Source: Acholeplasma sp. (GTDB lineage: Bacteria; Bacillota_I; Bacilli_A; ML615J-28; CAG-698). From it: DNA of 32,009 nt. The notes under the pieces are model-generated. The model made no database searches, had not been told where the DNA came from, and was given only the letters and a program-made list of their open reading frames with translations. Below, one piece after another: positions 11,715-29,644 of the stretch (position 1 is its first letter; every line of letters begins with the position of its first letter). The DNA lies in NCBI GenBank assembly GCA_012838635.1, contig DUOW01000020.1:1-32009 (forward strand), written 5' to 3'. Made by a program: the position numbers and the translations under genes.

Positions 11715-14700
11715 TTATTCTCCCTCCAAGATTATATAGTCGTTTGCAGCAATGGAAATTCCACTTATGCTGTCTAAATATGGGCTATTTGCATAGTTGA
11801 TGATAACTTTACAAACTGTACCATAATCATTTGCATACGTAGATTGAACTACGTTATCTGTAAGATACTTATGACCTACTAGCTTACCTTGATGAATCTT
11901 AGCTTCATTAATTTTTTGATTCATCTCGACAATTTTGTTTTCCCAGTTTAAGAAATAAGTATTGAAGTATTCTGTATAATCAGTTGTTAATAATGTATTT
12001 GTATCAGTATAAGAGACAACAAAGTTTAAGTTAGAACCAGTCTCTAATGCTTTAAGTAAATACCAACGATAAGATTGGGCGCTATTATAGTTAACTGTCG
12101 TTGTTGTGTAGTCAACTAAACCACTTAATGCTAACTGATATAAAGGAATTGAATACTCTACTGCTGGATATAAAGTTGTCGTTAATGGAGCATCAACAAT
12201 AATATTTGCATATTTAAATGCATAATCAAATGGGCTCTTAAGCATTACTTTCTTACCAGAATCTTTCGCAATATCTAAAGTAGCTACTTGATAATCTTGC
12301 CCTACAACAGTAAAGATTTCTTTCTTGCTATCATAAGATGAAATTTTCAAGTTACCTAAGTCCGATAAGTAAATACCAGAAGTATTAAGTTTCTCATAAT
12401 TAGCCAAGTATTTATTAAAGTATGATTGATAAAAACGAGGCGATAAGTGATAGATTGGAGCAAGTGTGCGGTCAAAACGACCAGTTGGTACTACATAAGG
12501 GTAGTAGACAGTTTCTGTATTACTTACACTCTTTGCATTGTACTTTCTCTTACCAAATGGATAATCGTATCCTTGGTTTGTAGAAACATTTACTTCTGGA
12601 TAGAAATTAATATTTCTTTCTGCTAAAAACTGGCTTAACTTCTTGAATCCTTTTGACCCACCTAGTACGCTAGAAATTCTAATATCTTTTCTAGCTTTAG
12701 ATTCCATCTCATCTTTAGTCCAAGCTGTATAACTAACACTAAAGTTTTCTACTCCTTTTTCTTCTAAAGTTTCAATAACTTCTTGTGCTTCTTCAAATGT
12801 TGTTAAGCTTTCTGCTTTGTTGTAAACAAAACCTAATTGCATTGCTTTCTTTTCAAAAGCACCTAAGAAATTTAAATTAACTACATTTGATTCAGTTGTA
12901 TCAATTTCTTGTAAATCGTACTTATTAATTAAATATCGACGATATTGTTTTGCAACCTCTACATAGTTAAAGTTAGCATTTGATTTCACTTCCCCATCTT
13001 CAATTTTTTCAGGAACAATAAACTGGAAGTAATATGAAAGGTCAGTTGGAATCCTTGATTTCGACCATTTTTGATATGAAGAAACATAGTAAGATCTTCC
13101 TACACTTACAAACTCTGAATCTCTCATACTTACTTCACAGTTAATATAGTTGGAACTGCCTGCTGTTCTTGTCCTCATAAAGTCAGCTACAATACTGTGG
13201 TGACTAGGAGCTTTTTCAATAATTGCAATCACGCCTATATTTTCTGTTTTGTCTAAGTAAGCATACATTGGAAGCATTATCGTTTGTACATCAGCAGGTT
13301 CGGTATTTAAGATTTGCGATTTATCAAAACCATAAACTCTCTTTGGTTGATAGCCCGAAACAAACTGATCTTGCTTATCACTGTTAAAGTTAATAACAGC
13401 ACCACTACCATCAGGGATAATAATCTCACCTTCAGATGTATGATCAAAGTTTTTACTAAAGTTAGGTAAAATCTCAATACTTGAAATCTTGAATTCATGA
13501 GAATAACCATCATCCCCACTTGAACCTTCTTTAATTGAATCGTGTAAGATATCAAACTTTAAGCCATTTATTGTAAGTTCATATTGAACCCCAACTTGGA
13601 AAATCGCACTTGCAGAAGCTGCAGATTGTTGATAAATTCTATTTTGCTCTTCTACAATATTCCTTTTTTCTTCACCTTCTTTAGCTAAGAAAGGTTCACT
13701 AAATTGTGCACGAACAGGGTTACCTAATTCATCATAAACAAAGTTCCCATCGGCATCTCTTAAAGGTACACCACCTTGAATAACTGGTTTACCTTCGTAA
13801 TAAACAATTTTACTATCATCATATTTATCTAAAACTGAAGTACTAGTTCTCATATAGTTTGTTGAACTAATATCGTATAAGAATGTATACAATTCATTTC
13901 TTCTAGCTTCTGATGTAGCCTTATTTTCATAAGTTTTTGAACTATTTTCTGTATAGTGAATATAGTTCTTATTTGTTTCATTAGTTTTAACGTTATAAAC
14001 AAGTTCGTAGTGACCATCCATAATTGACTTAATATTGGCTGCTGTTAAGAATGGATTAACATGAACTGGAGAATTTGGTGCATTGCAAGTTTCACCTAAA
14101 ACCATTTTTGGTTTTCCAATTTTATCTTCAGTAATCGTTCCGTCTTCATAATCTTCTTCAGTCCAAATTAAGTTGTTTAATGTCCAGTGACCTAAGAAAG
14201 TATTTTTACCATCTGAACTATAAACTGGTGTTGCCGTACCTAAATTGTTTTCTACAATATAATTAGCGGCTTCTTCACTAGTAGTAAGTCCATTTTCAAG
14301 GTAAATTAAATTATAATGTCCATGTGAGTCAACCTCATTTGATACAACTTTTGTAATCCAAGTGTTTCCTCTAACAATATCTTCAAAGACTTCTCTTTCA
14401 ATATATCTAGGGAAGAAGTTGTTAGCATTAGTAAAATCTCCTACTTCGTATAAAACTTGAACTTTATTATCACCTTCATAGTTAATCTTATAATGTCTTG
14501 TAGCTACACCTTTAATTAAGTCCATATAAGCTACACTCTTACTATAAGTACCTAAATTGTTAGCAGAAACCTTTCCACTTTTTCCAAAGTAACGAAGTCT
14601 AAAGACATCACCACTAACTAATTCTCCTTTTTCATTTACATAATCACTTAATTGATATAAAACATTAAATGATTCATATACATCAAAACCATTTTTATCT

Positions 14701-15668
14701 TTTACTTGAACACCACTAACTTTCTTTGGTGTTCCTGTTTCATTTAAACCAATTGATACTGAAGTAGTTTCTTCATTAATATACATTGTAAACTTGTCAT
14801 TTTGAGCTACAATTCGATCAGTTTCAAAAATTGAAGATTTATATTCAATATCATCTACTACTGAATTTAAAACTACTGACTCAACCATATTGTTTAAAAT
14901 GTTAACTGCTTTTTTCGTTTCTTTTGTGATGTTATCTAATACTTCTTGATCGGGTTCTTCAATCTCTTTTTGAACAATCGCTAATTGTGACATCTTTGTT
15001 TCAATTAACTTAATTGGATAGTCAAAAATAATTGTGAAGTTTTCCGTATCAACATTAGTATTATTGGGAACAACAACTTCTTGTTCTTCCATTTCACCTT
15101 CTTCTCCACCTTCTTTTGGAACTAAAATAATTCTCGTTTCATATGTGTCGAAGAAAGTCAAAGATTCTAATTCATCTACAATTCCTGAAAAAACATCTTT
15201 TCCTTTTTGTGTTAAAGCAACAATTTTTAAGTTGTTAACTCCTGGCTTGCCTTCATCATCTTCATAAAGTTCTAGACTAAAGTCATCAGTTTCAAAAAGT
15301 CTCGCCACGGCAAGTTGAGCTAAATACATTTCATTAGCAATAAGCTCTTCATTATCACCCACATTTAAGTTTATATAAATTGCTGTATCGCCATAATGAT
15401 TTGTTTTTTCAACTTTGTAACCAGCATCAGTTAAAGCTGTTGCTACACGCTCAACATCACTTTCAGAAAAACCCTTCTTAAAAGTAATTTTACGATCATA
15501 TTGTTCTAGATAAGAAAAATCAAGTAAAAATTCTTCAGAATCAAATTTTTGATTATCATAGCTAATTGTTGTTGCCTTTAAGCCACCAATAAAGTAAACA
15601 CCTAAAGTGATACCAATTGCTATAACTAATAGACCTAAAACAATATGTCTTAATCTAATAATTTTCAA
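11715..15668 (-). CDS. DUF5696-type large membrane-anchored protein
   Basis: A 1317-residue protein with one N-terminal membrane anchor (about residues 9-29) and a long extracytoplasmic part. I assign it to DUF5696, a family found in Bacillota beside CUT1 permeases and YIP1 proteins. Supporting blocks are GEIIIPDGSGAVINFN, YVEVAKQYRRYL and SGIYLSDLGNLKISSYD, the latter like part of a TIM-barrel glycosidase fold. No catalytic residues can be named with confidence. The start is TTG at 15668, eight bases after GGAGG; an ATG five bases upstream is out of frame and stops after two codons. It sits between YIP1 and the second permease pair, so a part in sugar capture or processing at the outer membrane face is inferred. 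It seems longer than usual for the family. Confidence 0.68.
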   Translation of the reverse strand: MKIIRLRHIVLGLLVIAIGITLGVYFIGGLKATTISYDNQKFDSEEFLLDFSYLEQYDRKITFKKGFSESDVERVATALTDAGYKVEKTNHYGDTAIYINLNVGDNEELIANEMYLAQLAVARLFETDDFSLELYEDDEGKPGVNNLKIVALTQKGKDVFSGIVDELESLTFFDTYETRIILVPKEGGEEGEMEEQEVVVPNNTNVDTENFTIIFDYPIKLIETKMSQLAIVQKEIEEPDQEVLDNITKETKKAVNILNNMVESVVLNSVVDDIEYKSSIFETDRIVAQNDKFTMYINEETTSVSIGLNETGTPKKVSGVQVKDKNGFDVYESFNVLYQLSDYVNEKGELVSGDVFRLRYFGKSGKVSANNLGTYSKSVAYMDLIKGVATRHYKINYEGDNKVQVLYEVGDFTNANNFFPRYIEREVFEDIVRGNTWITKVVSNEVDSHGHYNLIYLENGLTTSEEAANYIVENNLGTATPVYSSDGKNTFLGHWTLNNLIWTEEDYEDGTITEDKIGKPKMVLGETCNAPNSPVHVNPFLTAANIKSIMDGHYELVYNVKTNETNKNYIHYTENSSKTYENKATSEARRNELYTFLYDISSTNYMRTSTSVLDKYDDSKIVYYEGKPVIQGGVPLRDADGNFVYDELGNPVRAQFSEPFLAKEGEEKRNIVEEQNRIYQQSAASASAIFQVGVQYELTINGLKFDILHDSIKEGSSGDDGYSHEFKISSIEILPNFSKNFDHTSEGEIIIPDGSGAVINFNSDKQDQFVSGYQPKRVYGFDKSQILNTEPADVQTIMLPMYAYLDKTENIGVIAIIEKAPSHHSIVADFMRTRTAGSSNYINCEVSMRDSEFVSVGRSYYVSSYQKWSKSRIPTDLSYYFQFIVPEKIEDGEVKSNANFNYVEVAKQYRRYLINKYDLQEIDTTESNVVNLNFLGAFEKKAMQLGFVYNKAESLTTFEEAQEVIETLEEKGVENFSVSYTAWTKDEMESKARKDIRISSVLGGSKGFKKLSQFLAERNINFYPEVNVSTNQGYDYPFGKRKYNAKSVSNTETVYYPYVVPTGRFDRTLAPIYHLSPRFYQSYFNKYLANYEKLNTSGIYLSDLGNLKISSYDSKKEIFTVVGQDYQVATLDIAKDSGKKVMLKSPFDYAFKYANIIVDAPLTTTLYPAVEYSIPLYQLALSGLVDYTTTTVNYNSAQSYRWYLLKALETGSNLNFVVSYTDTNTLLTTDYTEYFNTYFLNWENKIVEMNQKINEAKIHQGKLVGHKYLTDNVVQSTYANDYGTVCKVIINYANSPYLDSISGISIAANDYIILEGE

Positions 15669-15683
15669 CTCATTTTCCTCCTT

Positions 15684-16409
15684 CTAGAAATATCGTAAGG
15701 TTATCTCTCGATATACTGTGTATGCAAAGCTAAAGATTTTACGATATAGGTCAAATAGTAATAATACAGCAAAAAGAATAACAATAGCTGCTACTAACGT
15801 AAACACTGCCATTAATACACATTTTAATAACCCATACTCATGAATAGCCATCCATCCTACAAATAGGAAATACACACTACCAAAAGTTCCAATACCCATA
15901 ATTAAATGATAAAGCCCTACTTCCTTTTCTACAATAATATTACTTACAAAAATTCCAAAAAACTTTGCTACAATCATCGGAAATAAAGCATAGCTTGTTA
16001 GAAGAAAGATATCTTTCATTGTTCCTTTACCATCAAATAGTGTTGTAACTGACCAGTTAGCAACAACTAAAACAGCTAAAGGTACGATAACATAAGCAAT
16101 CTCCGCTAATGTATTTAACTCTGTAATATCTCTTTGATTTACAATAAAACCAGAGTAATGGAAATCCATAATACTTAATAAAATATAAAGAACGATATAA
16201 GTAATAGCTAAACTCATTTTAGCTCTTTTATATCTTTTGAATTCATCAAACCCTTTGAAAGGTTGGAATAAAATATAAGTAGGAAACTTAATTCCTTCAT
16301 TCCATAAAAACTTAAAGAATTGAGCAATTTCAGAAATAACAAGTTTTACAATACTAAAAAACTTTTCTTTCTTAGAAACTTCAGTTGTCATAACTTCTCT
16401 ATTTTCCAT
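15684..16409 (-). CDS. YIP1-family integral membrane protein
   Basis: A 241-residue protein with five or six hydrophobic spans (about 65-83, 104-122, 132-160, 167-188, 196-220) and the YIP1 layout, with a cytoplasmic N-terminus carrying an amphipathic FQPFKGFDEFKRYKRAK stretch before span 1. Bacterial YIP1 proteins have no established role. In this cluster type it travels with NHL, DUF5696 and CUT1 permease genes, so a structural or assembly role in the importer is inferred. Its ATG overlaps the TAA of the NHL protein gene by one base (TAATG), and the ribosome site GGTGAGG lies in the last codons of that gene. Confidence 0.72.
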   Translation of the reverse strand: MENREVMTTEVSKKEKFFSIVKLVISEIAQFFKFLWNEGIKFPTYILFQPFKGFDEFKRYKRAKMSLAITYIVLYILLSIMDFHYSGFIVNQRDITELNTLAEIAYVIVPLAVLVVANWSVTTLFDGKGTMKDIFLLTSYALFPMIVAKFFGIFVSNIIVEKEVGLYHLIMGIGTFGSVYFLFVGWMAIHEYGLLKCVLMAVFTLVAAIVILFAVLLLFDLYRKIFSFAYTVYREITLRYF

Positions 16410-18199
16410 TAATCCTCACCTACAATTCTCTTAATGTCTTTTCTTGGAATCTCCGCAATTTTACCTCTTGCAACTAAAATTAAAGCTGCTCCGATTGCTA
16501 AAACGGCAAAAGACGTAAAGTTAAGTTTAATTTCACGGTCACGATATCTTTGATAAGCATTTGAATAATAACTAGTTTCAAATCCTAAACGGAAGTTAGC
16601 CATTGCATCTTGATATCGATTTTCATTTAGTAATGATTTACCAATACCAATATAAGCAAGCTCGTAATTAGGGTTTTCCGAAACTACATTCTTCCATTCC
16701 TCAGCTGCTTCTGCTAATTGACCATTATATTGATATTCAACTGCTTTATTAATAATTCTAGCAATATCAGTTGGCTCAAAACGAATAACAGCTTTATTGT
16801 ATTTATCTAAAACTAAGATATCTTCACCTTGATAACGAACAGCTGTTGGGCTGTTGATATTATTTAACTCTGGACCAGAATTACCTGAGATGTAAAGTAA
16901 GTTACCTTCATCATCATAAGTAAACAGTCTTCCTTTTTTCTCATCTACTACTGTATAAACACCATAGTCATTAATTGCGATCCCCGCAAACCTAGATGAA
17001 ATCGAAATTCCATCACTAGCGCTACTACCAGCAAGAGAAAAGGCAATATCCCCTATTGGCATATGATAACCATTTTTAACTAACGTATCTTTTCCTGAAG
17101 GGTTAATCTTCTTAATCATATTGTTTGGATCTTCACTATAAGTAGATACTTTGATTGCTCTTGATACAGTATAGATAAATCCTGAATCATCAATTGCTAA
17201 GTTCCTAAACTCAGTATTTACAATCGCTGATTGTTTTTTAAGCTGTTCTTCAGTTGAAAAGTTACGCCAAAACTTATCCCAAGCTGTTAGAGTTGTATAG
17301 TTTACACCGATATAACTCATGAACTCACCAAAGTAGCTCATTTGCATAATACCTTCATAAACAGACTCAGAGATAACAAACATTCTTCCTGTTGAGTCAG
17401 TAACCATTTTTAAAGGTGAGAATGTCTTACCTTCAAAAACAATTGATGTTGGTTGGCTTACAACTTGGATAATATGGTAATCAACAGGATCTAATAGTAA
17501 GATTTGATTGTTACCTTTATCGCAAATGTATAAAACGTCTTGATATTCACCTTCAATAATGAAACCACCTTCATCTCTTAAAGGTCTTAAAGCACGATAA
17601 ACACCAGAAATATTTTTCGGTTGAATATACCATCTTTGACTATCAGCCCTACTTTCAACCGGTGTTTGTAGTGGTGCTGTAAATGTTAACCAGTCAACAC
17701 CATCAGTCGTATTACTAAATAGTTTATTACCTGTATCAGTACCAGTTTTTACTTTTTCGTATTCATCTTGAGTAATTGTATCTGGCCTAATTTCATAACG
17801 AGTAATAATTTCACCTTCATAAAAACGATCAACAGTTTCTCCTTTAAGGCGATATCTTCTTGTTCTTCTTGATTCATCACTACCTTGTTTTAGTTTTAAT
17901 GTGCTATCAAAAACATATAAATAGTTAGATGTTGAATCGATAATGTAAATTGTTTCTTCACCTGTAACCGGGTGTTTAAAAATAAACAAGTCTTCTGGAG
18001 AAGTGAATTGATCAGCTGGTATTCCTTCCCAGGCATTTGAGGTAATTGTATAAATACCATCTTTACTTGCACTCATACCTACAGTTGAGTGGATAGCTTT
18101 CTTCGCATGGTCGTAAGTATATCCACCTTTAGCTTCTACAATAAGTACAGTTGACCCCAGTAATAATAAAGCACTAAGAAAATAAAATATTTTTTTCAT
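16409..18199 (-). CDS. Secreted NHL/beta-propeller and TPR protein with C-terminal membrane anchor
   Basis: A 596-residue protein with a signal peptide (first ~24 residues, cleavage near VEA-KGG). Repeated NHL-like blades follow (PEDLFIFKHPVTGEETIYIID, DVLYICDKGNNQILLLDP, GEDILVLDKYNKAVIRFEP), then a TPR pair at about 482-545 (AEEWKNVVSENPNYELAYIG), a membrane span near 558-578 and a short basic tail. The propeller and TPR would face outward. Such proteins often scaffold others or bind glycans, but its role is not known. The start follows AAAGGA at eight bases. It lies between the first permease pair and YIP1 in a continuous operon, so it is probably part of the same importer. Confidence 0.75.
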   Translation of the reverse strand: MKKIFYFLSALLLLGSTVLIVEAKGGYTYDHAKKAIHSTVGMSASKDGIYTITSNAWEGIPADQFTSPEDLFIFKHPVTGEETIYIIDSTSNYLYVFDSTLKLKQGSDESRRTRRYRLKGETVDRFYEGEIITRYEIRPDTITQDEYEKVKTGTDTGNKLFSNTTDGVDWLTFTAPLQTPVESRADSQRWYIQPKNISGVYRALRPLRDEGGFIIEGEYQDVLYICDKGNNQILLLDPVDYHIIQVVSQPTSIVFEGKTFSPLKMVTDSTGRMFVISESVYEGIMQMSYFGEFMSYIGVNYTTLTAWDKFWRNFSTEEQLKKQSAIVNTEFRNLAIDDSGFIYTVSRAIKVSTYSEDPNNMIKKINPSGKDTLVKNGYHMPIGDIAFSLAGSSASDGISISSRFAGIAINDYGVYTVVDEKKGRLFTYDDEGNLLYISGNSGPELNNINSPTAVRYQGEDILVLDKYNKAVIRFEPTDIARIINKAVEYQYNGQLAEAAEEWKNVVSENPNYELAYIGIGKSLLNENRYQDAMANFRLGFETSYYSNAYQRYRDREIKLNFTSFAVLAIGAALILVARGKIAEIPRKDIKRIVGED

Positions 18200-18203
18200 A
18201 AAC

Positions 18204-19202
18204 TTAATCCTTTAACCCACTCGTAGCCATTGTTTCAATCATACTACTTTGGGAGATGATAAACATCGTAATCGGTACTGTAATCATAATTAAACTTACC
18301 GCAGCTAACGTACCCGATCTTGCAGCACCAGCTGTTGCTATTTGCGATAGGGCATAACTTACCATCTTGAAGTCTTCTCTATAAATGTACATTGCACCTT
18401 GAGTATTCCATAAGCTTTGGAAAACTAAAATAATTAAAGTAATCCAAGCTGGTTTTACTAAAGGCATAACAATTGTCCAGAAAATCTTAAAGTCTCCAGC
18501 TCCATCTAGCTTTGCCGACTCAATATATGATGTTGGTACTTGTGACATAAACTGTTTCATTAAGAATAATCCTAATGATGAACCAATCATCGGCAAAATT
18601 AAAGCTAGTGGATTATCGATTAAACCAAGCCAGTTAAAGATAATATAGTTTGGAATCGATGTTACTGCTGCTGGGAACATTAACGAATAAACGATAATCG
18701 TAAAGATAACATTTCCACCAGGAATCTTATATTTTGCTAGTGGGTAAGCGCACATTGAAGCAATAACTACGTGTCCTACTGTTCCCAAAATAGTTACCAT
18801 AACTGTGTTAAATAGGTATCTAGCAAATGGAACAGTTGAGTTTGCTAAGGCAACGCTTAAATCTGTAAAGTTATCTAAAGTAGGGTTTCTTACAAAAATG
18901 TTTGGCGGGAACTTAAATAACTCATCTAGTGGTTTAAAAGCATTATTAATTACCAAAATTAAAGGTAAAGCACTTAAAATCCCCGCTACACATAGGAAGA
19001 AGAATAAGACTAAGTCTCCTCCTACTGATCTATTAATTCTCTTTTTCTTTTTACTACGACGATGTACCTTTATCGTACTAATTTCAGCGAAAGGACGAGA
19101 ATCAATACTTTTAGCACGTTTAGCATTACGAAGAGCTTTTTTATCTTCTTTTAACTGTGCTTTTTCAGCTGCAGTTAATTTAGCTTTTTTAGCTTGAGCC
19201 AT
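18204..19202 (-). CDS. Carbohydrate ABC transporter permease, MalG type (first pair)
   Basis: A 332-residue CUT1 permease with six spans and the EAA loop IESAKLDGAGDFKIFWTIVMP. The first 60 or so residues are a strongly basic cytoplasmic tail (KKALRNAKRAKS, HRRSKKKKRINRS). Its ATG overlaps the stop of the partner MalF gene by one base (TAATG). It should pair with that protein to form the channel served by the binding protein encoded just upstream. Confidence 0.93.
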   Translation of the reverse strand: MAQAKKAKLTAAEKAQLKEDKKALRNAKRAKSIDSRPFAEISTIKVHRRSKKKKRINRSVGGDLVLFFFLCVAGILSALPLILVINNAFKPLDELFKFPPNIFVRNPTLDNFTDLSVALANSTVPFARYLFNTVMVTILGTVGHVVIASMCAYPLAKYKIPGGNVIFTIIVYSLMFPAAVTSIPNYIIFNWLGLIDNPLALILPMIGSSLGLFLMKQFMSQVPTSYIESAKLDGAGDFKIFWTIVMPLVKPAWITLIILVFQSLWNTQGAMYIYREDFKMVSYALSQIATAGAARSGTLAAVSLIMITVPITMFIISQSSMIETMATSGLKD

Positions 19203-20197
19203 TATGATCCCACCTTTCCAATAATTTTTCTAATTAATTTATTTAAAACGATTGCGGAAACGAAAAGGATTGTCGCAATTGCCGAAGCATAACCCATCTC
19301 GAATCTTTGTCCACCATAGTCTTGCAAGTGGTTTACAATCGTATGACCAGCATAGTTAATAGAAGGGAAACCCGCTAAAGTAGTCGTTACAGCACCTACA
19401 CCAAGTGATGATGAGATTTGTAATACAGCACTAAATAAAAGCTGTGGTCTCATGTTTGGTAAGGTAATATACCATAACTCTTGCCAACGGTTTTTAACAC
19501 CATCAACTGCTGCTGCCTCATATTGTGATCTATCTACACCTTTTAAACCGGCAATCAAAGTTAAGAAGTTAACTCCTAAGCTCATCCAAAGCTGAACGAT
19601 AATTACAATCGGTAAGATGTATTTTTCTGTTTGAAGCCATAGAATTGGTTCTCTAATAAAACCCCATTTAATTAAGAAGGCATTGGCATAGCCATAAATA
19701 TCACTAGAGAAAATCAAACTCCAAATCGTAATCGCACCTCCAGAAATTGAAGGAGCATAGAAAATTAAAGTTACAAATGCTCTTAATTTATCTGGAAGTT
19801 CATTAATTAACCAAGCTAGAATAAATGAAATTAAATATCCTAATGGCCCAGTAATAATTGCGATAATTAAAGTATTTTGAACAGCTATAATGAAAATTGG
19901 ATCATCAAGTAACAATGTTAAGTAGTTAGACCAACCAATAAATTTAGGAGCTTCAAGTAAGTTAAAGTATGTAAAACTTAAAAAGAAACTCATTAAAACA
20001 GGTAAAACTGTAAATAAGAAAAATAGTGCTAAATAAGGAATCATCATTAAATATAATGTTTTATTTAACCAGAATTTTCTTCTTGCTGGTTTTTTTCTGC
20101 TCCAAATGTCTAAACGGCGGGCTGTATCTTCTTTCCACTCACGAAAAGATCTTCTTTTCTTAATAGCTTGGTTATCTACCATAACTTTATCAGCCAT
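19202..20197 (-). CDS. Sugar ABC transporter permease, MalF type (first pair)
   Basis: A 331-residue CUT1 permease with the EAA loop YEAAAVDGVKNRWQELWYITLP and six spans after a basic N-terminal tail of about 45 residues. I prefer the ATG at 20197 (MADKVMVDNQ). A TTG at 20206 would add three residues and overlap the preceding gene by eight bases. The ribosome site GAGAGG is somewhat far from the ATG and somewhat close to the TTG, so the start is uncertain by three codons. It follows the binding-protein gene directly and precedes its MalG partner. Confidence 0.92.
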   Translation of the reverse strand: MADKVMVDNQAIKKRRSFREWKEDTARRLDIWSRKKPARRKFWLNKTLYLMMIPYLALFFLFTVLPVLMSFFLSFTYFNLLEAPKFIGWSNYLTLLLDDPIFIIAVQNTLIIAIITGPLGYLISFILAWLINELPDKLRAFVTLIFYAPSISGGAITIWSLIFSSDIYGYANAFLIKWGFIREPILWLQTEKYILPIVIIVQLWMSLGVNFLTLIAGLKGVDRSQYEAAAVDGVKNRWQELWYITLPNMRPQLLFSAVLQISSSLGVGAVTTTLAGFPSINYAGHTIVNHLQDYGGQRFEMGYASAIATILFVSAIVLNKLIRKIIGKVGS

Positions 20198-20198
20198 A

Positions 20199-23100
20199 CT
20201 ATGCAATATCCTCTCTAGTTATAAAACCAAATTCTTTTCTTTTCTTTGTCAACTCGGCATTAATTGTATTTACATAAGTTAGAAGTATTTCTCGAGGATT
20301 CTTCTTTTCGTTAATTGTTTTTCTAAAAGCATTCTCGACGTTTCTTCCTGTATAGTAACCACCAGCTACTTCTGGAATACCAACTGTATTAACCCATTGA
20401 GAAAGTAAAACTTCTTTTTCTTCTGTTGTCCAAGCCATACTCTTGAAAGCATCCATATTCGCTGTGTTATGACGAGCTGCCGAACCTAAAATTGACTCTA
20501 ATTCCTGAGCATAAGATAATTGTGTTGGAGCGGATGTAACCCACTTTAAGAACTCCCAACTTGACTCAGGATCTTTTGTTTGTTTCATAATAATACCTGC
20601 TGATCCACTTGCAGCACCTTTGTTATTAACGATTCCAGTTTCAGAATCTTTCACACCTGGAATTGGTGCAAAGCCCCATTTACCAGTAATCTCTGGTGCG
20701 AAAACAGCAAGGTAGTTAAAGTTTGTATAATCTACAACTCCAATTGGAGTTTCACCTGTTCTAAATCTGTTTAAGAAACTTGCAGCTGTTGGGAAAGAAT
20801 AATCTGTATAATACTTAACCCAAGTTTCAAATGATTGCAATGCTTCTTCTCTATCTAAAGCTGTTGCTGTTTTATCTTCTGTATAGAAACTACCACCATT
20901 TTGGAATAACATCGAAGCAAACACTTGGTTTACAGCTGCTGATGCACCAACAGCACTTAATGGAAGATAGAATTGTAAGTTAGAAATTTGTAACTCAGTT
21001 ACTAAACTTGTAACTTCATCCCATGTTTTAGGTACTGTCCATCCTCTTTCTTCAAAAATATCTTTTCGATAGAAAGTAACTAAGAAAGATTGGGTGATTG
21101 GTAGAGCATAAAACTCTAAATCATTCACATCTGCTGTTTTTTGTAAAGCATAAGGTGTCATTGCACTATCAGCAAATCTTGGAGTAGATTCACCATTGAT
21201 CAACAATCTAACTCCATATTCGGTAACTTCATATTTAAAGTCATCAAATTGTGAAATATCATAAGAAGCATTTCTTAAAGCATAGTTTACAGGAAGTCCG
21301 TTATATACGTTTAAGGCTACATCTGGGCCTGTACCAGCAAGTGTAGCCGGTAATAAAACTCCGGGATCTACAACCTTTAAAATAACGTTAATTCCGTATT
21401 GGTTAGTAAATGTTGTGTCAGATAAAGTTTTTAAAGCATTAGCTTGCTCTCTACCAGCAACAGCACTAGTTAAGAACCATACTTCAATTTCTTTATCAAA
21501 TCCTTCGGCATGTGTTACGCCAATTGATTGATAATCAAAGAAGAAAGTCATAAAGAAAGCTTTAATATCAAACCATGTTCCGCTAAACCAGTCAGCATTT
21601 GGTTTTGGTAGTTCAGCATCACTACTTGAAACATACAATGCTTCAACTGTAAGTGATTGTTCTTGAATACTTGTAATCCAAGTTCCAAGTGAAGATAAGT
21701 TTTGAACAAACGTTCCTAATCTTTCTTGAATTGTTCTTGGCTTTTCTAAAAATGATTCAAGCTGAATTGCCATTGTATCTAGTACGGATACTAAACTTCC
21801 CTTTTCTCCTGAAAGCTGAGTAATATGTTCTGATACTTCTCTTAATCTAATTGCATTTTCTTCAAAACACTCTAATAAACCAACAATACGAGCATTATCT
21901 CCATATAGGTGATATTCTTGGTATGGGTCTGGGTTAACTGTAGTTATAGAAATGATTTGTAAATACATATTATTTAAATCATTAACAACATTTTTAACTT
22001 GGTTAATCGGACCACCATATGCTCCTAATGTTGACTCTAATCTAATCGTGTTAATTCCTTCATGGAAATAAAACTTATATTTTTCTTCACTATTTCCTAA
22101 AGTAACTAATCGCCAATTTGTACTGTAATTGAAATTAGAGTTATTAGCTTCAATAAATGGAATTTCTCCATTAATATATAATCTTCTTGTAGAGAAAAGT
22201 CCACGAGCTGTATTCTGTTTAGCTTTAAAACTAAGTTCATACATTCCCGCTTCTTCCACATCAACTTCCCATTCAATCCAATCTCCAGGTGCTGTCCATT
22301 TTGTACCACCAATTGAGTTTAGTGTTATTTTAACTGGATGCGATGGAGTGTTTGTTGGCGAAGTACGATCAGCAATCGCATATAAAGTAGGAGATGAACG
22401 TTTTGTTGAATTTTCAGCTTCTACTTGTAACATTACATTACTTGGCTCATTCTTATCTTGATGTTGATTTAGATAATCTTGATAAGTAACAACTTCAGGA
22501 ACTGCTTCAACTGTTAAAGAAATAATACTCATATTTTCTCTAATTGAATCAAAAGTAATTGTATTAGCTCCTGCTTTGAAATAAAACATATAAGGATTAA
22601 CTACATAACCTGTATAATCTCTTATATAGCTTTGATTTACATCAAATATTTCCATTTGTGATGGTTTCATATCATTGCCATTAATGTCTTGAATGATTTC
22701 TCCTTTGTCTTTCCACATTCTATAGAATCTAATGTTTCGAGCAGATTCAAATGGTAATTCACCATTAATCAAAATAATTCTCTCAACATTGGCACCACCA
22801 CTAGTATCTCTAACATTGAAACTTTCATCACGAAGTTTCTCAGCATAATATTCTACTTTCAAATAATAGAATCCTGCCTCAGGAATATCGACAGGAAAAG
22901 TAATACTTCCTGTTTCTGATGTGTAATATCCTGCCTTTTTTTCTCCATTTGGTAAAACAATTGAGTTATTAGGATCATCTACATCCATATACTTAAAGTC
23001 AATTGCATTTGCACTTGGAGTACCCAATGTTATGTCTACTGTAATATCTTCAACTTGAGGTTTTACAATCAAAGGTTTAACGTCTTTATTAAAATCCAAT

Positions 23101-23450
23101 ACTGCTAATCTTTGAGGATCAGAAATACCCGTAGCCTTAGCTCTAATGTAGTTATTGTAATCACCTTCGGGATATAACTCTTCTGGAATATATGAATCTG
23201 ACGTTGTTCGATCTGGTCTAAAACTCTTCACAATTGAAACTGTGATGATTGTTACTAGTAAAACTAAAATTGTAATCCAAATTGCTCGTTTAATCATCTT
23301 CACACGATTAGTTTTACGCTTTAGTTTACTTTCACTTGAATCAACTAAATCATAATTCACAGTAGTAATCTTGACATCTTCAATTGCTACTGCTTCTTTT
23401 TTAACTTCTTCAACTTCTTGTTCTTGAAGTTTCTTTTCTTCTTTACTCAT
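20199..23450 (-). CDS. Membrane-tethered sugar-binding protein with two carbohydrate-binding-like modules
   Basis: A 1083-residue protein. It starts with a charged cytoplasmic tail (1-54), followed by one membrane span (about 55-75) with no lipobox, so it is anchored by a transmembrane helix. Two related beta-sandwich modules follow, at about 135-315 and 340-505. Each has a GxYxL strand (EAGFYYLKVEYYAEK; EAGMYELSFKAKQ) and an ING(E)xPF block, as in galactose-binding/CBM6/35-like folds. A helical linker (510-650) leads to a CUT1-type solute-binding domain (about 653-1075; TGPDVALNVYNGLP, FYRKDIFEERGWTVPKTWDEV). It probably captures glycans and hands them to the first permease pair. The ATG follows AAGGAGAAAACA and overlaps the GH20 stop by eight bases. 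Confidence 0.82.
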   Translation of the reverse strand: MSKEEKKLQEQEVEEVKKEAVAIEDVKITTVNYDLVDSSESKLKRKTNRVKMIKRAIWITILVLLVTIITVSIVKSFRPDRTTSDSYIPEELYPEGDYNNYIRAKATGISDPQRLAVLDFNKDVKPLIVKPQVEDITVDITLGTPSANAIDFKYMDVDDPNNSIVLPNGEKKAGYYTSETGSITFPVDIPEAGFYYLKVEYYAEKLRDESFNVRDTSGGANVERIILINGELPFESARNIRFYRMWKDKGEIIQDINGNDMKPSQMEIFDVNQSYIRDYTGYVVNPYMFYFKAGANTITFDSIRENMSIISLTVEAVPEVVTYQDYLNQHQDKNEPSNVMLQVEAENSTKRSSPTLYAIADRTSPTNTPSHPVKITLNSIGGTKWTAPGDWIEWEVDVEEAGMYELSFKAKQNTARGLFSTRRLYINGEIPFIEANNSNFNYSTNWRLVTLGNSEEKYKFYFHEGINTIRLESTLGAYGGPINQVKNVVNDLNNMYLQIISITTVNPDPYQEYHLYGDNARIVGLLECFEENAIRLREVSEHITQLSGEKGSLVSVLDTMAIQLESFLEKPRTIQERLGTFVQNLSSLGTWITSIQEQSLTVEALYVSSSDAELPKPNADWFSGTWFDIKAFFMTFFFDYQSIGVTHAEGFDKEIEVWFLTSAVAGREQANALKTLSDTTFTNQYGINVILKVVDPGVLLPATLAGTGPDVALNVYNGLPVNYALRNASYDISQFDDFKYEVTEYGVRLLINGESTPRFADSAMTPYALQKTADVNDLEFYALPITQSFLVTFYRKDIFEERGWTVPKTWDEVTSLVTELQISNLQFYLPLSAVGASAAVNQVFASMLFQNGGSFYTEDKTATALDREEALQSFETWVKYYTDYSFPTAASFLNRFRTGETPIGVVDYTNFNYLAVFAPEITGKWGFAPIPGVKDSETGIVNNKGAASGSAGIIMKQTKDPESSWEFLKWVTSAPTQLSYAQELESILGSAARHNTANMDAFKSMAWTTEEKEVLLSQWVNTVGIPEVAGGYYTGRNVENAFRKTINEKKNPREILLTYVNTINAELTKKRKEFGFITREDIA

Positions 23451-25305
23451 TGTTTTCTCCTTGTAATGCTTTGTAGTGAAGCTTTCCTAATTTAAAGACT
23501 GCTTCCAACATTTCCATTGACTCAGCTAGATTGCTTTGTTTATTTCTAGCTAGCCATAACTCTTTTTGTTTATTTAATATTTTTTCCTTCTTAAATAGTT
23601 TTTCCAACAATTTAAGTTTCTTACTTTTAGCTAATTTAGGATTAAAACTTTGCATTAATAATCTTGTAACTAAAACTAAATCAATACTTTGGTTAACCTC
23701 ATCAATAACTAACTTTTTATCTTTAATCTTTAGTTTAGTATTTTTTAGCCCTTTTCGGTAAATTTCTAAATAATCTACTAAAGCTTGATATTTAGCTTCT
23801 TCAATAATGCTGTTTTTAATTTTCTCATAGTAATATTCTAAAGGTGCATCTTGCTTTAAAGCATAACTTGCCCACATATAACCAAAGAAAGTTAATGTAG
23901 CATTTGTAATATAGTAGTTTTCAAATTGATAATAATTACCAATCCCAAGTAAGATTTGGGCAAAGTTTCCTTTTTCATCTTTAAATACTTCTTCGTTTAA
24001 GTATTTAACAACATTAACCATTTCACCTTCTTCTAGACTCCAAGAATAAAATCCTGCAAACACTAAAGGTGCTACAATTGATGGAAGTAATTGCAAGTGA
24101 CCTGCATCACCCCAATCAGTTAGTACAATACCTAAACCATTGTATTTATAAACATTATCACATGCACTTTTAATATTTGCGATAAAGTCATAAGTTCTAC
24201 CAGTAAAACTACACCAACTTGTCGTACCAGGAGCAGCAGCAAATTTAATATTTAACGTTCCTAAAGTTTTTAATGTTTCAGAAAACTTATATGTAGCATC
24301 ATAACCCCAATCAATAAAGATAATATCTTTAGGTAGTTTCTTTAAAGCCTCTTTGTCTTTAATTAAAACATCCCCCCACATAATTGGTTTTTTATCGTAT
24401 TTTTTAACTTCTTCTAACACTAAATTTAAGTAATCTAAATAAACATTACTTAACCCTTCTTTTTCCACAATCTCCTTAGTCTTACCCATCCCAAGTTCCA
24501 TTGGTTCATCAAAGTTAATATTGAAATATTTAGACTTTCGTCCAGGTAACATCTCTTCATACATCTTACTTACTAGTTTGATTGATCTTGGATCTTTTGG
24601 ATCTACTGTCACCGGATCTCTATGTCTACCCCAATAGAAGGCTCCATCAGGACAAATAGCTAAATCTTTATATTCTTTTGTGGCAAGCCATGGTCCCATA
24701 TGACCAAAACCATTTTGGTTAGGAACAAAATCTATTTCTCTTGCAAAACAGTAATCTTCAATTAACCTATATTCATTCTTCGTAATATAGCCATCTTCTA
24801 ATAAATACTTTCTTGCAAAGTCATATTCATAGCTAAACCCCTCTACATATAACTCAAAATGATTCATCTTTAATTCTGCCATAAGATCAATGATTTTGTA
24901 GATAGTTTCGATCGTAGGTACTTTATTACGACTAATATCTAAAGTAAATCCTCTTACTAAAAGCTTTGGTTCATCCCAAATCTCTACAGTTTCGATTCTC
25001 TCTGATTTAAAGATTTGCTTTAAAGTTTGGCTTGCATAAAAAGCTGAAGCTGCATCATTGTAATAAATATCAATCTTATCTTTATCAATAACAATCTTAT
25101 ATGTTTGAATAGATCTTGCCTGTTCATAGATAAAATTAATATCCCCGATTTTGTTTGTTTTCTTTACTTTAAGAAATCTCTTTAGATTATCAAAAACGTT
25201 TTCTAAATTTTCAGTTAAAAAAACGGAATATTTATCTTTCTTTGTAAATTCTTCTTTCGTATATTTAATATACTTAACCTTTGGGTAAATCTTATACAAT
25301 TTCAA
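23443..25305 (-). CDS. GH20-family beta-N-acetylhexosaminidase, cytoplasmic
   Basis: A 620-residue protein with an N-terminal GH20b-like alpha/beta domain (about 1-105) and a GH20 catalytic barrel starting at RGFTLDISRNKVPT (about 118-130). The adjacent Asp266-Glu267 (NINFDEPMEL) fits the GH20 substrate-assisted catalytic pair. No signal peptide is present, so it should act on imported oligosaccharides, releasing GlcNAc or GalNAc. The C-terminal 190 or so residues are helical. The start is a TTG at 25305 after AAAGGA; a nearby ATG at 25309 is out of frame and stops after five codons. It is the first gene after the promoter at 25345 and therefore leads the transporter operon. The exact substrate is not known. 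Confidence 0.85.
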   Translation of the reverse strand: MKLYKIYPKVKYIKYTKEEFTKKDKYSVFLTENLENVFDNLKRFLKVKKTNKIGDINFIYEQARSIQTYKIVIDKDKIDIYYNDAASAFYASQTLKQIFKSERIETVEIWDEPKLLVRGFTLDISRNKVPTIETIYKIIDLMAELKMNHFELYVEGFSYEYDFARKYLLEDGYITKNEYRLIEDYCFAREIDFVPNQNGFGHMGPWLATKEYKDLAICPDGAFYWGRHRDPVTVDPKDPRSIKLVSKMYEEMLPGRKSKYFNINFDEPMELGMGKTKEIVEKEGLSNVYLDYLNLVLEEVKKYDKKPIMWGDVLIKDKEALKKLPKDIIFIDWGYDATYKFSETLKTLGTLNIKFAAAPGTTSWCSFTGRTYDFIANIKSACDNVYKYNGLGIVLTDWGDAGHLQLLPSIVAPLVFAGFYSWSLEEGEMVNVVKYLNEEVFKDEKGNFAQILLGIGNYYQFENYYITNATLTFFGYMWASYALKQDAPLEYYYEKIKNSIIEEAKYQALVDYLEIYRKGLKNTKLKIKDKKLVIDEVNQSIDLVLVTRLLMQSFNPKLAKSKKLKLLEKLFKKEKILNKQKELWLARNKQSNLAESMEMLEAVFKLGKLHYKALQGENNE

Positions 25306-25386: not shown

Positions 25387-25414
25387 AAAAAAAGAGCATT
25401 TTTATGCTCTTTTT
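25387..25414 (-). terminator. Rho-independent terminator of the dusB-to-GHL10 operon
   Basis: An 11-bp stem (AAAAAGAGCAT at 25389-25399 with ATGCTCTTTTT at 25404-25414) and a 4-base loop, followed on the minus strand by a run of seven U. The stem begins inside the stop codon of the GHL10 gene. It separates this operon from the GH20 promoter just downstream. Confidence 0.93.
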
Positions 25415-26696
25415 AGATACTTTTTACATCTTTTGTCCACAAACTTTTAATTGATTTTTGAGCTGCCGGATAATTATCTTGCTTATCAACTAAGTTGTGA
25501 TAAGTAAAGAAAATTTCTCCAGAAACATAATCTAAAGTACTATTAAATAGTAATTGGTTTTTAATTTCATCTGGATTTATCCAGTAATTATTACTACCCA
25601 TACGGTATAAGCCCATACCAATATAAAGTTTAGTTTTTGTTTTTTTACTAGCTTCATTCCACCATTTTGCTAAGTCGGCATACTTTACAATTTCTTTTTC
25701 TGATCCATCTTCTAAAACTTTATGATAATCAAGGTTGAAATAATCTTGAGGGACTACATAATCAATATAACCTTTTTCCATCCAGTAATAGATATCAGCA
25801 TATAATCCTTCATAGCAATTAAAGCATGATTCATCATTATTTGAACCATATTCCCAGGCATTTTCTTTTGAAGAATACTTAGTACTTGTACGGTAAATAC
25901 CAAAAGGACTAATCCCAAATTCAACTTTACGGTCTAATGTATCTAGCTTTTCTTTCATCATCTTAATTAAACAAGTTACATTGTATCTTCTAAAGTCAGC
26001 TTTGTTTTTAATTCCAACTTGATATTGTTTCTTTTCTTCATCTGGATCTACATATTCTTCATAAGGATAGAAATAGTCATCCATATGGATTGCTTTTACA
26101 TCATATTTTCTTGCTATCTCTAAAGCAGAATCACTGACAAACTCTTGAACTTCTTTAGAAGCAGGATCTAAGATTAAAGCTTTACGGCTAGTTTCCATAA
26201 CTAAATGAGGATTCTTCTTCGCAAAGTTTTTATCATCTAGCGTTTTTAAATACTCATCTTTTGTCATTTCTAATTTATCTAAAGTAATTTGACTTACACG
26301 ATAGGGATTAAGCCAAGCATGAACTTCAATTTGCTCTTTTTTAGCTTTTTCAATAAAGTATCCTAAAATATCAAACCCAGGATATTTCCCTTGTTCTCCA
26401 GTAATATAAGAACTCCAAGGATTTAACTCTGATTCATAGAAAGCATCATTAGTAGGTCTAACCTGAAAAATAACGGCATTCATCTTATATTCTTTAACTG
26501 TTTTGATAATATCATCTAAATGCTTTTTGTAATCTTCTACATCCTTTAGTTTAGGTAAATCAATGTTTGCAACAGTTGAAACCCATACTCCTCTTAAAGC
26601 ATCCTTTTCTTCTATTTTTTCAGGAATTAAAACAGGCTCTTCGCTGCGAAAATAAGTAACAAATCCTACCTTAGAATCTCTTTTGATTTTTCTCAT
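25413..26696 (-). CDS. GHL10 (DUF187) glycoside hydrolase-like protein, DigH/YddW type
   Basis: A 427-residue protein with the hallmark blocks of the DUF187/GHL10 family: LRGVWVSTVANIDLP, AVIFQVRPTNDAFYESELNPWS, HAWLNPYRVS, LILDPASKEVQEFV and AIHMDDYFYP. E. coli DigH (YddW) of this family cleaves denuded peptidoglycan glycan strands; many other members are uncharacterised. Family members are usually exported, but here no signal peptide or lipobox is seen, so a cytoplasmic role is inferred. The ATG overlaps the TGA of the GNAT gene (ATGA). It is the last gene of its operon and its stop is part of the terminator stem. Confidence 0.85.
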   Translation of the reverse strand: MRKIKRDSKVGFVTYFRSEEPVLIPEKIEEKDALRGVWVSTVANIDLPKLKDVEDYKKHLDDIIKTVKEYKMNAVIFQVRPTNDAFYESELNPWSSYITGEQGKYPGFDILGYFIEKAKKEQIEVHAWLNPYRVSQITLDKLEMTKDEYLKTLDDKNFAKKNPHLVMETSRKALILDPASKEVQEFVSDSALEIARKYDVKAIHMDDYFYPYEEYVDPDEEKKQYQVGIKNKADFRRYNVTCLIKMMKEKLDTLDRKVEFGISPFGIYRTSTKYSSKENAWEYGSNNDESCFNCYEGLYADIYYWMEKGYIDYVVPQDYFNLDYHKVLEDGSEKEIVKYADLAKWWNEASKKTKTKLYIGMGLYRMGSNNYWINPDEIKNQLLFNSTLDYVSGEIFFTYHNLVDKQDNYPAAQKSIKSLWTKDVKSI

Positions 26697-27670
26697 TTGA
26701 AATCCTTTCTCATAATCGCAAATGACTTCACAATTCTCATCCCTGCATATAAATAAATATTACGAGCTTTATTATCACTACCAGTAAATAAAGTCATAAA
26801 TTTAGCTCCATTTTGTTTTGATCTCAAACAAAGCTCACAGAACATCGTTTTACCTAGCCCTCTAGCTCTAACAGAAGAATGAATACCAACACCTGATAAA
26901 TAACCTCTTCCTGAAGGTTCAGTAAAGATTGGACCAGTAAAACCTAAAGCACGATTATCTTTCTTAACAACTAATAATCTATTTAAATTACCAAGTTTTC
27001 TTTGTCTTTCAATTTCCTCAAACCAAGTAGGACTATTTAAATCTTCAAATAGTTCTTTTAAACCATAGTCTTTTTCTTCATCAAAGAAATCAATGAAATA
27101 ACCATCTTTCTCATTTTCTTTTTTCTTGTTTACTACATACTCTGGAAGTTCATAATTTTCAAGCTCTAAATGGAAGGCATCTAACTGTCCATTTGTATTA
27201 TATCCATAACTTAGAAGTAGGAAATAATAAGCTGAATTAAACTCAACTGCAGGCGCTCCTGGATGGTTATGTTTATCATATCCAGGAACATACCACTCTA
27301 GATTTATTGGGTTTCCAAAGTAACAACGAACAAATTTCTTGCCATTTTCCTTAAGATATTGTTCTAACTTTTCTAAAATCTTAGTTCCATATCCTTGTCT
27401 TTGATACTCCTTTTTTACAACGACAAACGTAATAAACCCTGGTGTTTCTGGATTTTGATTAGTTACATTAGCTTGTCCTGCACCAATTAACTCCTCATCT
27501 TTATAAAGTAACACTAAACTTTCATCTTTAAAATAAGGATTTTTTAAGAATTTATTCGTAAATAACTCTTCTGTCCATGGCTTAAAAATCCCGTTTTCCC
27601 CTGTTGCATTTTCATTCCAAAGCTTTATTAAAGCTGGCAATTGATCTTTTGAAAACTTTTTAAACTTCAT
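26693..27670 (-). CDS. Tandem GNAT-family N-acetyltransferase
   Basis: A 325-residue protein with two GNAT units. The acetyl-CoA motifs are VVKKEYQRQGYGTKILE (about 88-104) and GVGIHSSVRARGLGKTMF (near 262-280), both close to the R/Q-x-x-G-x-G/A consensus. I prefer the ATG at 27670 (MKFKKFSKDQ), seven bases after AAAGGA, over a TTG six codons upstream. It overlaps the stop of the serine hydrolase gene by 11 bases. The substrate is unknown. It differs in sequence from the other two-domain GNAT (6185-7141) but has the same architecture and also sits among glycan and peptide enzymes. Confidence 0.87.
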   Translation of the reverse strand: MKFKKFSKDQLPALIKLWNENATGENGIFKPWTEELFTNKFLKNPYFKDESLVLLYKDEELIGAGQANVTNQNPETPGFITFVVVKKEYQRQGYGTKILEKLEQYLKENGKKFVRCYFGNPINLEWYVPGYDKHNHPGAPAVEFNSAYYFLLLSYGYNTNGQLDAFHLELENYELPEYVVNKKKENEKDGYFIDFFDEEKDYGLKELFEDLNSPTWFEEIERQRKLGNLNRLLVVKKDNRALGFTGPIFTEPSGRGYLSGVGIHSSVRARGLGKTMFCELCLRSKQNGAKFMTLFTGSDNKARNIYLYAGMRIVKSFAIMRKDFK

Positions 27671-28757
27671 CTTTACATCCTTTCCCAAAATGACTTATAA
27701 CATAATTTCCGATTCTTCCACGCCAACCAATGATTTTATTGTTCTCTCTTGTTGGGTGAACTCTATTACTAAGTACGCAAAATGCTACTTGATTTTCTCT
27801 ATCAATAAATAAATGTGTTCCTGTAAAGCCTGTATGCATAATTGTTTTCGGGCTTGCTAAACACCCAGATTGAGGGTAAGATCCTTTAATTGTCCAACCA
27901 ACTGACCTTTTTTCCGTAATTACACTCATCTCGTTTTCCTTTTGACTAGCAAGTTCTGTAAACATTAAATCGATTGTAGCATGAGATAAAATTCTTTTAC
28001 CCTTGTAAACACCATCATTTAAGACCATTTCCATAAAATGCGCAACATCTTTCACACAAGAAAATAGCCCCGCATGACCACAAGCTCCACCTAATAAATA
28101 AGCTTTTTCATCATGAACTTTCCCTCTTACAACCCCATCACAAATTCGATCTTTTCTTACTTCAGTTGGAGCAATGATTTTATAAAGATCAGGACTTGGA
28201 TTATAACCAGTATGATACATTTCTAATGGCTCGAAAATATATTTTTTTGTAAATTCATCAATTGGCATTCCACTTATCTTTTCCACAATCCAACCTAGAA
28301 TAATAAATCCTAGGTCAGTATAAATAATTCTTTCACCAACTTCAGCCATTGGGGGAGCATCATAAATTGCCTTAGCAATAGCTTCTTTTGGTTTATCAAG
28401 ATACTCTGCATAAGCAATTGCTGGTTTTAACCCAGCTGTATGCGTAACTAAATCAAAAACAGTTACTTTTGGATTTTGAAAATCAGGAAGAATCTCTTTC
28501 ACATTATCATATAATCTTAACTTCCCTTGTTCCATTAAAATCAAAACTGAAGTAACAGTTGCAATAACTTTTGATAATGATGCCATATCGTAAATAGTAT
28601 CAATATCATTTACTTCTTTTTCAGGAATTACTGCTTTAAACCCAAAAGTATTAAAATGCTTATTGCCATTTTCTATTAAACAATAATTACAACCAGGAAA
28701 AACTCCATCTTTTACTGCTTGTTCCATTAATGAATCTAAATATTTAATCTTTGTCAT
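27660..28757 (-). CDS. Serine hydrolase of the class C beta-lactamase fold, AmiE/YbbE-like
   Basis: A 365-residue protein with the three penicillin-recognising motifs: SLSK with Ser60 and Lys63, YTD at 146-148, and HTG at 308-310. The block GKVHDEKAYLLGGACGHAGLFS is typical of the YbbE group. In B. subtilis YbbE (AmiE) is an N-acetylmuramoyl-L-alanine amidase in the murein recycling cluster with NamZ and NagZ, and homologues of both are also in this window. By analogy it may split MurNAc from peptide. Other members of the fold are esterases or D-peptidases, so the substrate is an inference. No signal peptide is present. Its ATG overlaps the stop of the dipeptidase gene (TAATG). Confidence 0.82.
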   Translation of the reverse strand: MTKIKYLDSLMEQAVKDGVFPGCNYCLIENGNKHFNTFGFKAVIPEKEVNDIDTIYDMASLSKVIATVTSVLILMEQGKLRLYDNVKEILPDFQNPKVTVFDLVTHTAGLKPAIAYAEYLDKPKEAIAKAIYDAPPMAEVGERIIYTDLGFIILGWIVEKISGMPIDEFTKKYIFEPLEMYHTGYNPSPDLYKIIAPTEVRKDRICDGVVRGKVHDEKAYLLGGACGHAGLFSCVKDVAHFMEMVLNDGVYKGKRILSHATIDLMFTELASQKENEMSVITEKRSVGWTIKGSYPQSGCLASPKTIMHTGFTGTHLFIDRENQVAFCVLSNRVHPTRENNKIIGWRGRIGNYVISHFGKGCKDEV

Positions 28758-29644
28758 TATTTACTCCTTTTATATAATTTATCGTGATAGCGATTATAGA
28801 AATTATCCCAAGCAACTTTCTTAATTTCTTCTTTAGTATATCCTCTTTTTTTCATTCCTTCAATGATTAGATGAGCTTTTGTAGCATTAGGGACTTCTTT
28901 AACCATTGCATTTTCAAAATCATCATCTAAATAATCCATAAAGTCAAACCCAAAGCAAACATTATCTATACCCATAACTTCAATTGCAAAATCTAAATGA
29001 TCTAAGAAATGTTCTAAATCTCTTTCTTCTTCTTTCCTGCTTACAAAACTCTTTGCTAGCGTTAGGCCAAATAAACCATTTGCTTTCTTTAAAGCAAGCA
29101 TTTGCTCTTTATCTAGGTTCCTTCTATGATCACAAATATCATAAACTAAGCCATGAGAATAAACAATATTATGATTAGTATATTCTAAAACATCGTAAAA
29201 ACTTTTCTTGTTTAAGTGAGCTGTATCAATAATCATATCAAGCTCAATCATTATATCAAGTAGCTTTTTACCTTCTTCTTTTAAACCAGATTCTTTAGGG
29301 CCAGCAACACCTGTTGCATACTTATTTTCTTCATTCCAAGTAAGCATTGCATGTCTAAAACCTAAGTTATAGAAATAACGAATATCTTCAGCGTTTTCTA
29401 AGTTTCTTAATCCTTCAAAACCTAAAATAACTTTAAAATCTTTTAGTTCATTCCAATCAATTTTGCCTAAAGCGCAATTTACTGCTTCTTTCAAATCAAA
29501 GTCATCTGGTGAATATAAAGTCCAAACTGCACCTTTAATAACAGAATTATTATATTGCTTTACGTGAATATCTTTGAATCGATTATCGCCTTTTCCTCTA
29601 AATAAGTCATATAGTAAATCACTATGAATATCAAATACTTTCAT
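28757..29644 (-). CDS. M19 (renal/membrane dipeptidase family) metallopeptidase
   Basis: A 295-residue enzyme with the complete M19 zinc and substrate set: HxD (His7, Asp9), the bridging Glu77 in LGFEG, His143 (DTAHLN), His164 (YSHG), Arg175 (DHRRN) and Asp234 (GFDFMDY). M19 enzymes hydrolyse dipeptides, including those with a C-terminal D-residue, which suits peptidoglycan-derived peptides such as L-Ala-D-Glu or D-Ala-D-Ala. No signal peptide, so cytoplasmic. It is slightly short for the family. The ATG overlaps the TAA of lysA, and AAAGGAG in the last lysA codons serves as the ribosome site. Confidence 0.9.
   Translation of the reverse strand: MKVFDIHSDLLYDLFRGKGDNRFKDIHVKQYNNSVIKGAVWTLYSPDDFDLKEAVNCALGKIDWNELKDFKVILGFEGLRNLENAEDIRYFYNLGFRHAMLTWNEENKYATGVAGPKESGLKEEGKKLLDIMIELDMIIDTAHLNKKSFYDVLEYTNHNIVYSHGLVYDICDHRRNLDKEQMLALKKANGLFGLTLAKSFVSRKEEERDLEHFLDHLDFAIEVMGIDNVCFGFDFMDYLDDDFENAMVKEVPNATKAHLIIEGMKKRGYTKEEIKKVAWDNFYNRYHDKLYKRSK

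Follow-up and report, generated by a model that had tools for sequence, protein, structure and literature searches.

The eight-gene cassette

The window (the whole stretch of DNA analysed, 32,009 nucleotides of contig DUOW01000020.1 from Acholeplasma sp., assembly GCA_012838635.1) carries a cassette of eight genes on its minus strand, in the order long SBP-P1-P2-NHL/TPR-Yip1-DUF5696-P3-P4, the first of which encodes a long solute-binding protein (SBP):

20199..23450, minus strand: long SBP, 1083 aa, an ORF with a Shine-Dalgarno sequence and a Pfam SBP_bac_1 match
19202..20206, minus strand: P1, MalF-type permease, EAA loop EAAAVDG
18204..19202, minus strand: P2, MalG-type permease, EAA-like loop ESAKLDG
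16409..18199, minus strand: NHL beta-propeller and TPR protein with an N-terminal signal and a C-terminal span
15684..16409, minus strand: Yip1-domain membrane protein (Pfam 2.3e-12)
11715..15668, minus strand: DUF5696 protein with an N-terminal span (Pfam 2e-122; profile distantly GH129-like)
10477..11712, minus strand: P3, permease, EAA-like loop EAAKMEG, basic N-tail of ~113 residues
9453..10514, minus strand: P4, permease, EAA-like loop ESAQVDG

The ORF at 20199-23450, proposed as a gene in an earlier note made from the sequence alone, is genuine: its ATG start is preceded by an AAGGAG Shine-Dalgarno sequence, its product is 87% identical over the full length to that of a sister genome, and the dN/dS between the two is 0.18. 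It overlaps both neighbours by a few bases, namely the upstream GH20 gene and the downstream P1 gene. The SBP and the DUF5696 protein each have a single N-terminal span, and the Yip1 protein has about five. Among the permeases, the basic cytoplasmic N-terminal tails can be unusually long, reaching about 113 residues in P3 of the window and 184 residues in the P3 of another locus (L051).

Among the related loci examined, those with long enough sequence all show this gene order, including ones whose SBPs share ~30% identity, and the cassette extends from Acholeplasmataceae to Butyrivibrio and Paenibacillus. Partial cassettes in two loci (L035 and L046) are cut by contig ends. In two distant loci (L047 and L049), the gene at the DUF5696 position is too diverged for single-sequence phmmer; the one in L047 (G048) matches the Pfam DUF5696 model. 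The same kinds of gene, in the same order, are found on the Butyrivibrio fibrisolvens plasmid pNP243 (NZ_CP146964, WAA20_RS20545-20510) and on a Paenibacillus cellulosilyticus plasmid (NZ_CP054609), where they are annotated merely as SBP, permeases, NHL, YIP1, and DUF5696. These clusters differ from that of the window in their nearby enzymes (GH43 in Butyrivibrio). In the Paenibacillus cluster NHL and Yip1 are fused and a ugpC ATPase gene lies just upstream of the cassette. Both are followed by SBPs of ordinary length, and some distant cassettes have short lipoprotein SBPs at their flanks. NHL(+TPR) and Yip1 form one protein in distant cassettes (L084:19394-21550 and L049:9398-11410), and these fusions argue that the two work together. 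The distant cassettes L047 and L049 adjoin GH35, PF10091 (GH144-type), and SOGP/GH94 genes, which hints at the use of beta-glucans.

The linkage was also evident in an evenly drawn sample of 295 genomes, in which we used full-length DUF5696 and a profile of the second extracytoplasmic module of the long SBP (module 2, see below) as markers. The two occur in exactly the same 39 genomes, and for 85 of the 90 DUF5696 genes a gene with module 2 lies upstream in the same orientation, the median distance being 6.1 kb; the hypergeometric value for this overlap, about 1e-49, ignores relatedness and is not readable as a probability. An odd, one-off fusion had been considered as an explanation of the long SBP and was rejected, as the sister gene, the recurrent cassette, and the genome sample all show a family-wide architecture. 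Neither the cassette nor this widespread architecture was recognised in the earlier note, and we regard the cassette as a more important finding than the anatomy of the SBP itself. Our literature searches on DUF5696, and on YIP1 together with SBPs, found no paper, and the cassette apparently represents an undescribed conserved importer of Bacillota.

Anatomy of the long solute-binding protein

The 1083-aa protein comprises the following parts:

23295..23450, minus strand: residues 1-52, charged cytoplasmic tail, lineage-specific (present in the sister species, diverged in the G009 homolog, short elsewhere)
23229..23285, minus strand: residues 56-74, single membrane span without a lipobox (KD 2.8)
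22485..22937, minus strand: residues 172-322, module 1, CBM35-like (profile against module 2, E=2.7e-23; against CBM35 2w47, 9e-4)
21915..22448, minus strand: residues 335-512, module 2, CBM35-like, with a C-terminal helix (5x7g, 1.3e-10; Foldseek)
21501..21914, minus strand: residues 513-650, helical stalk (helices in the models; kept across the family)
20202..21500, minus strand: residues 651-1083, type I SBP domain (Pfam; sugar-binding proteins by phmmer against the PDB)

The earlier note had set this protein apart from the usual short lipoprotein SBPs, describing a membrane-anchored protein that lacks a lipobox and has a stalk and a pair of related beta domains resembling carbohydrate modules, a description that the analysis supports. 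The tail is rich in K and E, and residues 1-100 contain no Cys, so that there is no lipobox. The sole other SBP_bac_1 protein of the genome (L088:1818-3293), in contrast, is a classic lipoprotein (...LALVTGC). A span without a lipobox is a general feature of the family: it holds for 35 of 36 full-length homologs, the remaining one (L048, ~27% identity) giving a marginal lipobox match. Some homologs, for example that of Butyrivibrio, may have a cleavable signal in place of the anchor; the N-terminal anchor of the long SBP probably remains uncleaved. The SBP_bac_1 match covers residues 676-977 (E=6.6e-21, 76 bits against a cut-off of 26), and the matches of the SBP domain in the PDB are sugar-binding proteins, the best being 9h0n (phmmer, 1e-9). 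The N-terminal half, in turn, gives sub-threshold Pfam matches only. An AlphaFold model of the full-length protein, built from three sequences, is of low confidence over most of its length (overall pLDDT 37) and was used for helices only; it places these at residues 475-596, with pLDDT values mostly between 53 and 81, ahead of the binding domain.

One proposal found no comparative support, namely that the cytoplasmic tail contacts the permeases or the ATPase. Such docking, which would regulate transport, finds some encouragement in the charge and the length of the tail (52 residues) and in its proper start site. Yet the long tail is shared only by the window species and its sister species (87% identity), with a similarly long, diverged form in the G009 homolog (63% identity), whereas the other homologs have roughly 2-30 residues ahead of the span and keep the same transporter partners. 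Moreover, P1-P4 of this lineage generally carry basic or charged tails as well. Given this lack of conservation, we reject a docking role for the long tail as very improbable.

The two modules were compared using alignments from 29 homologs (A2, residues 172-322; A3, residues 335-512). Their family profiles match each other with a probability of 99.5 (hhalign, E=2.7e-23). Within the window protein alone, the local alignment score of the two is 77, compared with a mean of 30.4 (SD 5.2) for shuffled sequences, and none of 2000 shuffles reaches it. The GxYxL and INGExPF patterns pointed out earlier are present in both. The modules are thus mutually related. In searches of the PDB, the module-2 profile finds the CBM35 part of cycloisomaltooligosaccharide glucanotransferase (CITase; 5x7g, E=1.3e-10), and the module-1 profile matches the CBM35 structures 2w47/2w1w (E=9e-4); in Pfam, they stay below the curated CBM_35 cut-off (15.1 versus 28 bits). 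A weak AlphaFold model of module 2, derived from six module sequences (pLDDT 53, pTM 0.50), gave eight top Foldseek matches that are all CBM35-bearing, the best being 2vzr (E=5.7e-5), with TM values of about 0.4-0.57. Both modules are therefore best described as predicted CBM35-like beta-sandwiches, assigned by sequence profile, with weak fold support from the module-2 model. Their likeness to the CBM35s of CsxA (2vzp), C. thermocellum (2w47), and CITase (5x7g) is of the same two kinds. They differ from CBM35s in residing in an importer SBP, in remaining sub-threshold for Pfam CBM_35, and in having an extra C-terminal helix that leads into the stalk as well as a highly conserved loop.

This loop bears on what the modules might do. 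Few parts of the long SBP are as well conserved as module 2 (about 0.60 identity in residues 361-440), whose SSxTLYxxxDRTS loop is kept across cassettes with quite different neighbouring enzymes, such as GH20 in the window, GH43 in Butyrivibrio, and a phosphodiester glycosidase in L032. Since module 2 and its loop are conserved while the enzymes change, we favour, with moderate confidence and on sequence grounds, a docking or spacing role over a substrate-specific one. As the earlier note implied, the modules could instead be genuine carbohydrate-binding modules by which the cell or the transporter is held on a polymer, with substrate specificities of their own. CBMs are often arranged in tandem, as these modules are, and the sequence and fold relationship to CBM35 points the same way. 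Still, the high conservation of module 2 and the constancy of its loop amid different enzymes resemble a conserved partner site more than a changing glycan site, so that we hold true carbohydrate binding to be a credible, somewhat less probable reading. Literature searches on fusions of CBMs with SBPs and on TM-anchored SBPs found nothing direct.

A proposed dedicated importer with a probable ATPase in trans

P1 and P2, which adjoin the long SBP, are paired MalF/MalG-type permeases with an EAA loop, and EAA-type loops are present in all of P1-P4; no ATPase gene lies within the window cassette. In the genome as a whole, we found 11 BPD_transp_1 matches, two SBP_bac_1 proteins, and one OB_MalK ATPase. 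The latter is encoded on its own on another contig (C48), and its best PDB match is MsmX of B. subtilis (6yir, 7e-147), an established multitask ATPase (PMC7658222). A stand-alone ATPase of this type would presumably be shared among the transporters. The type I (CUT1) importers of B. subtilis that combine SBP_bac_1 with multitask MsmX have in common with the window the SBP domain, MalF/MalG-type permeases with EAA loops, and an ATPase supplied in trans. In contrast to these, the window SBP is 1083 aa long and TM-anchored, lacks a lipobox, and carries two CBM35-like modules and a stalk, and the cassette adds the NHL/TPR, Yip1, and DUF5696 proteins and a second permease pair. We take the system to be of a known kind, a type I sugar importer, but arranged in a way that differs markedly from its relatives and is apparently undescribed. 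A distant homolog of the long SBP is the sophorooligosaccharide-binding protein Lin1841 (5ysb), which is a short SBP without modules; SOGP and PF10091 (GH144-type) genes also occur at the distant cassette L049.

Our preferred explanation, to which we assign a probability of roughly 60%, is that the eight-gene cassette encodes a dedicated glycan importer, with the long SBP as the membrane-tethered binding protein. The uncleaved N-terminal span of this SBP would hold it in the membrane, and the two CBM35-like modules together with the helical stalk would act as a fixed arm placing the SBP domain over P1-P2. The arm would most likely dock on the extracytoplasmic NHL/TPR and DUF5696 proteins, with or without direct glycan contact, and energy would come from the single stand-alone MsmX-type ATPase of the genome via the EAA loops. 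As cargo, GlcNAc/MurNAc oligosaccharides or muropeptides derived from the peptidoglycan of other bacteria are most likely; they would move inward and be degraded in the cytoplasm. That the cassette has two permease pairs and one SBP counts against this explanation.

The DUF5696 protein may be a tethered glycosidase that feeds the SBP. Its profile matches the GH129 3,6-anhydro-galactosidases 5opq/8rzg in the PDB (E 4e-7) in three weak collinear stretches in which the catalytic pair was not identified, and phmmer of the single sequence against the PDB gives no match. On this profile match, DUF5696 as a whole is a possible glycosidase family.

A wider proposal, which we put forward tentatively and at slightly less than even odds, is that of an undescribed glycan-import machine of monoderms. 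It would be a single membrane complex of a CBM35-armed SBP and a GH129-like DUF5696 protein, both tethered, together with two permease pairs and a scaffold of NHL/TPR and Yip1. The enzymes around it would be swapped per polymer, and a wall-less bacterium would use it to live on the peptidoglycan of others. If true, many genes of Bacillota annotated only as 'solute-binding protein', 'YIP1 family', 'NHL repeat', and 'DUF5696' would turn out to be parts of one uptake machine that can be tested and whose role resembles that of the SusCD-type systems in Bacteroidota. This wall-less lineage would then be a candidate peptidoglycan consumer, and MurNAc use by bacteria that do not make it would become directly testable.

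Neighbouring enzymes, apparent wall loss, and the likely cargo

Further enzyme genes of the window operon lie on both sides of the cassette:

29644..30948, minus strand: Orn/DAP/Arg decarboxylase family
28757..29644, minus strand: M19 membrane-dipeptidase family
27660..28757, minus strand: serine beta-lactamase-fold hydrolase
25413..26696, minus strand: GHL10 glycoside-hydrolase-like protein, no signal
23443..25305, minus strand: GH20 hexosaminidase, no signal (cytoplasmic)
7138..9399, minus strand: GH3 (NagZ-like) fused to a GlcN6P-isomerase domain
59..1540, minus strand: NamZ exo-N-acetylmuramidase (Pfam 1e-82 and 9.6e-49)

No signal is present on GH20, GH3, or GHL10, so the substrates of these enzymes have to be imported. 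Relatives have in addition an S66 LD-carboxypeptidase and a PIG-L deacetylase, and at a second locus of the same genome (L094 on contig C38) a GH3-MupG fusion is clustered with AnmK, MurQ, and a BadF-type kinase. The host itself seems to lack a cell wall: the transpeptidase domain PF00905 and the Mur ligase domain PF01225 were not found in its genome, which is 98.3% complete, whereas the same search was positive in 10 of 14 controls. Genes of muropeptide catabolism (NamZ, NagZ-like GH3, MupG, AnmK, MurQ, and M19) thus coexist here with the absence of transpeptidase and Mur ligase domains. PF00905 is likewise missing from the sister genome and from about half of the sampled family members, the rest keeping it, a pattern that agrees with a published study describing how Acholeplasmatales lost the wall repeatedly (PMC10868615). 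Between the two sisters, the cassette genes are under purifying selection (dN/dS 0.03-0.18).

From the muropeptide genes of the operon and of the C38 cluster, the absence of PF00905 and PF01225, and the purifying selection in the sisters, we infer that the cargo here consists of peptidoglycan fragments from other bacteria. Chitin or GlcNAc oligosaccharides are a less likely cargo; GH20 would suit chitin oligomers just as well, and the GH3/GlcN6P deaminase would fit them too. An NCBIfam similarity to NgcE, far below the cut-off, leans in this direction too. NamZ, M19, and the DAP-type decarboxylase of the operon, on the other hand, point to MurNAc and peptides, as do the S66 LD-carboxypeptidase of relatives and MupG, AnmK, and MurQ elsewhere in the genome. 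Less probable still is that the operon is not a feeding system but a remnant, inherited from a walled ancestor that recycled its own peptidoglycan: related family members with transpeptidases do have similar operons, yet this operon is intact and under purifying selection in two sisters that both lack PF00905. The importer may nevertheless have begun as a self-recycling system, since roughly half of the sampled family members keep transpeptidases, some of them with similar operons. For the preferred cargo, peptidoglycan fragments of other bacteria, a literature search on MurNAc use by wall-less bacteria found nothing direct.

Several enzymes of these loci occur as fusions. GH3 and glucosamine-6-phosphate isomerase, fused in the window, are encoded separately and side by side in relatives (L038 and L041, for example), and the second locus encodes an 872-aa fusion of a NagZ-like GH3 with a MupG 6-phospho-N-acetylmuramidase (L094:81-2696). 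Downstream in the same gene run of the window, positions 2868-6080 encode a 1070-aa lipoprotein (LLFGC) with three Big_2 domains.
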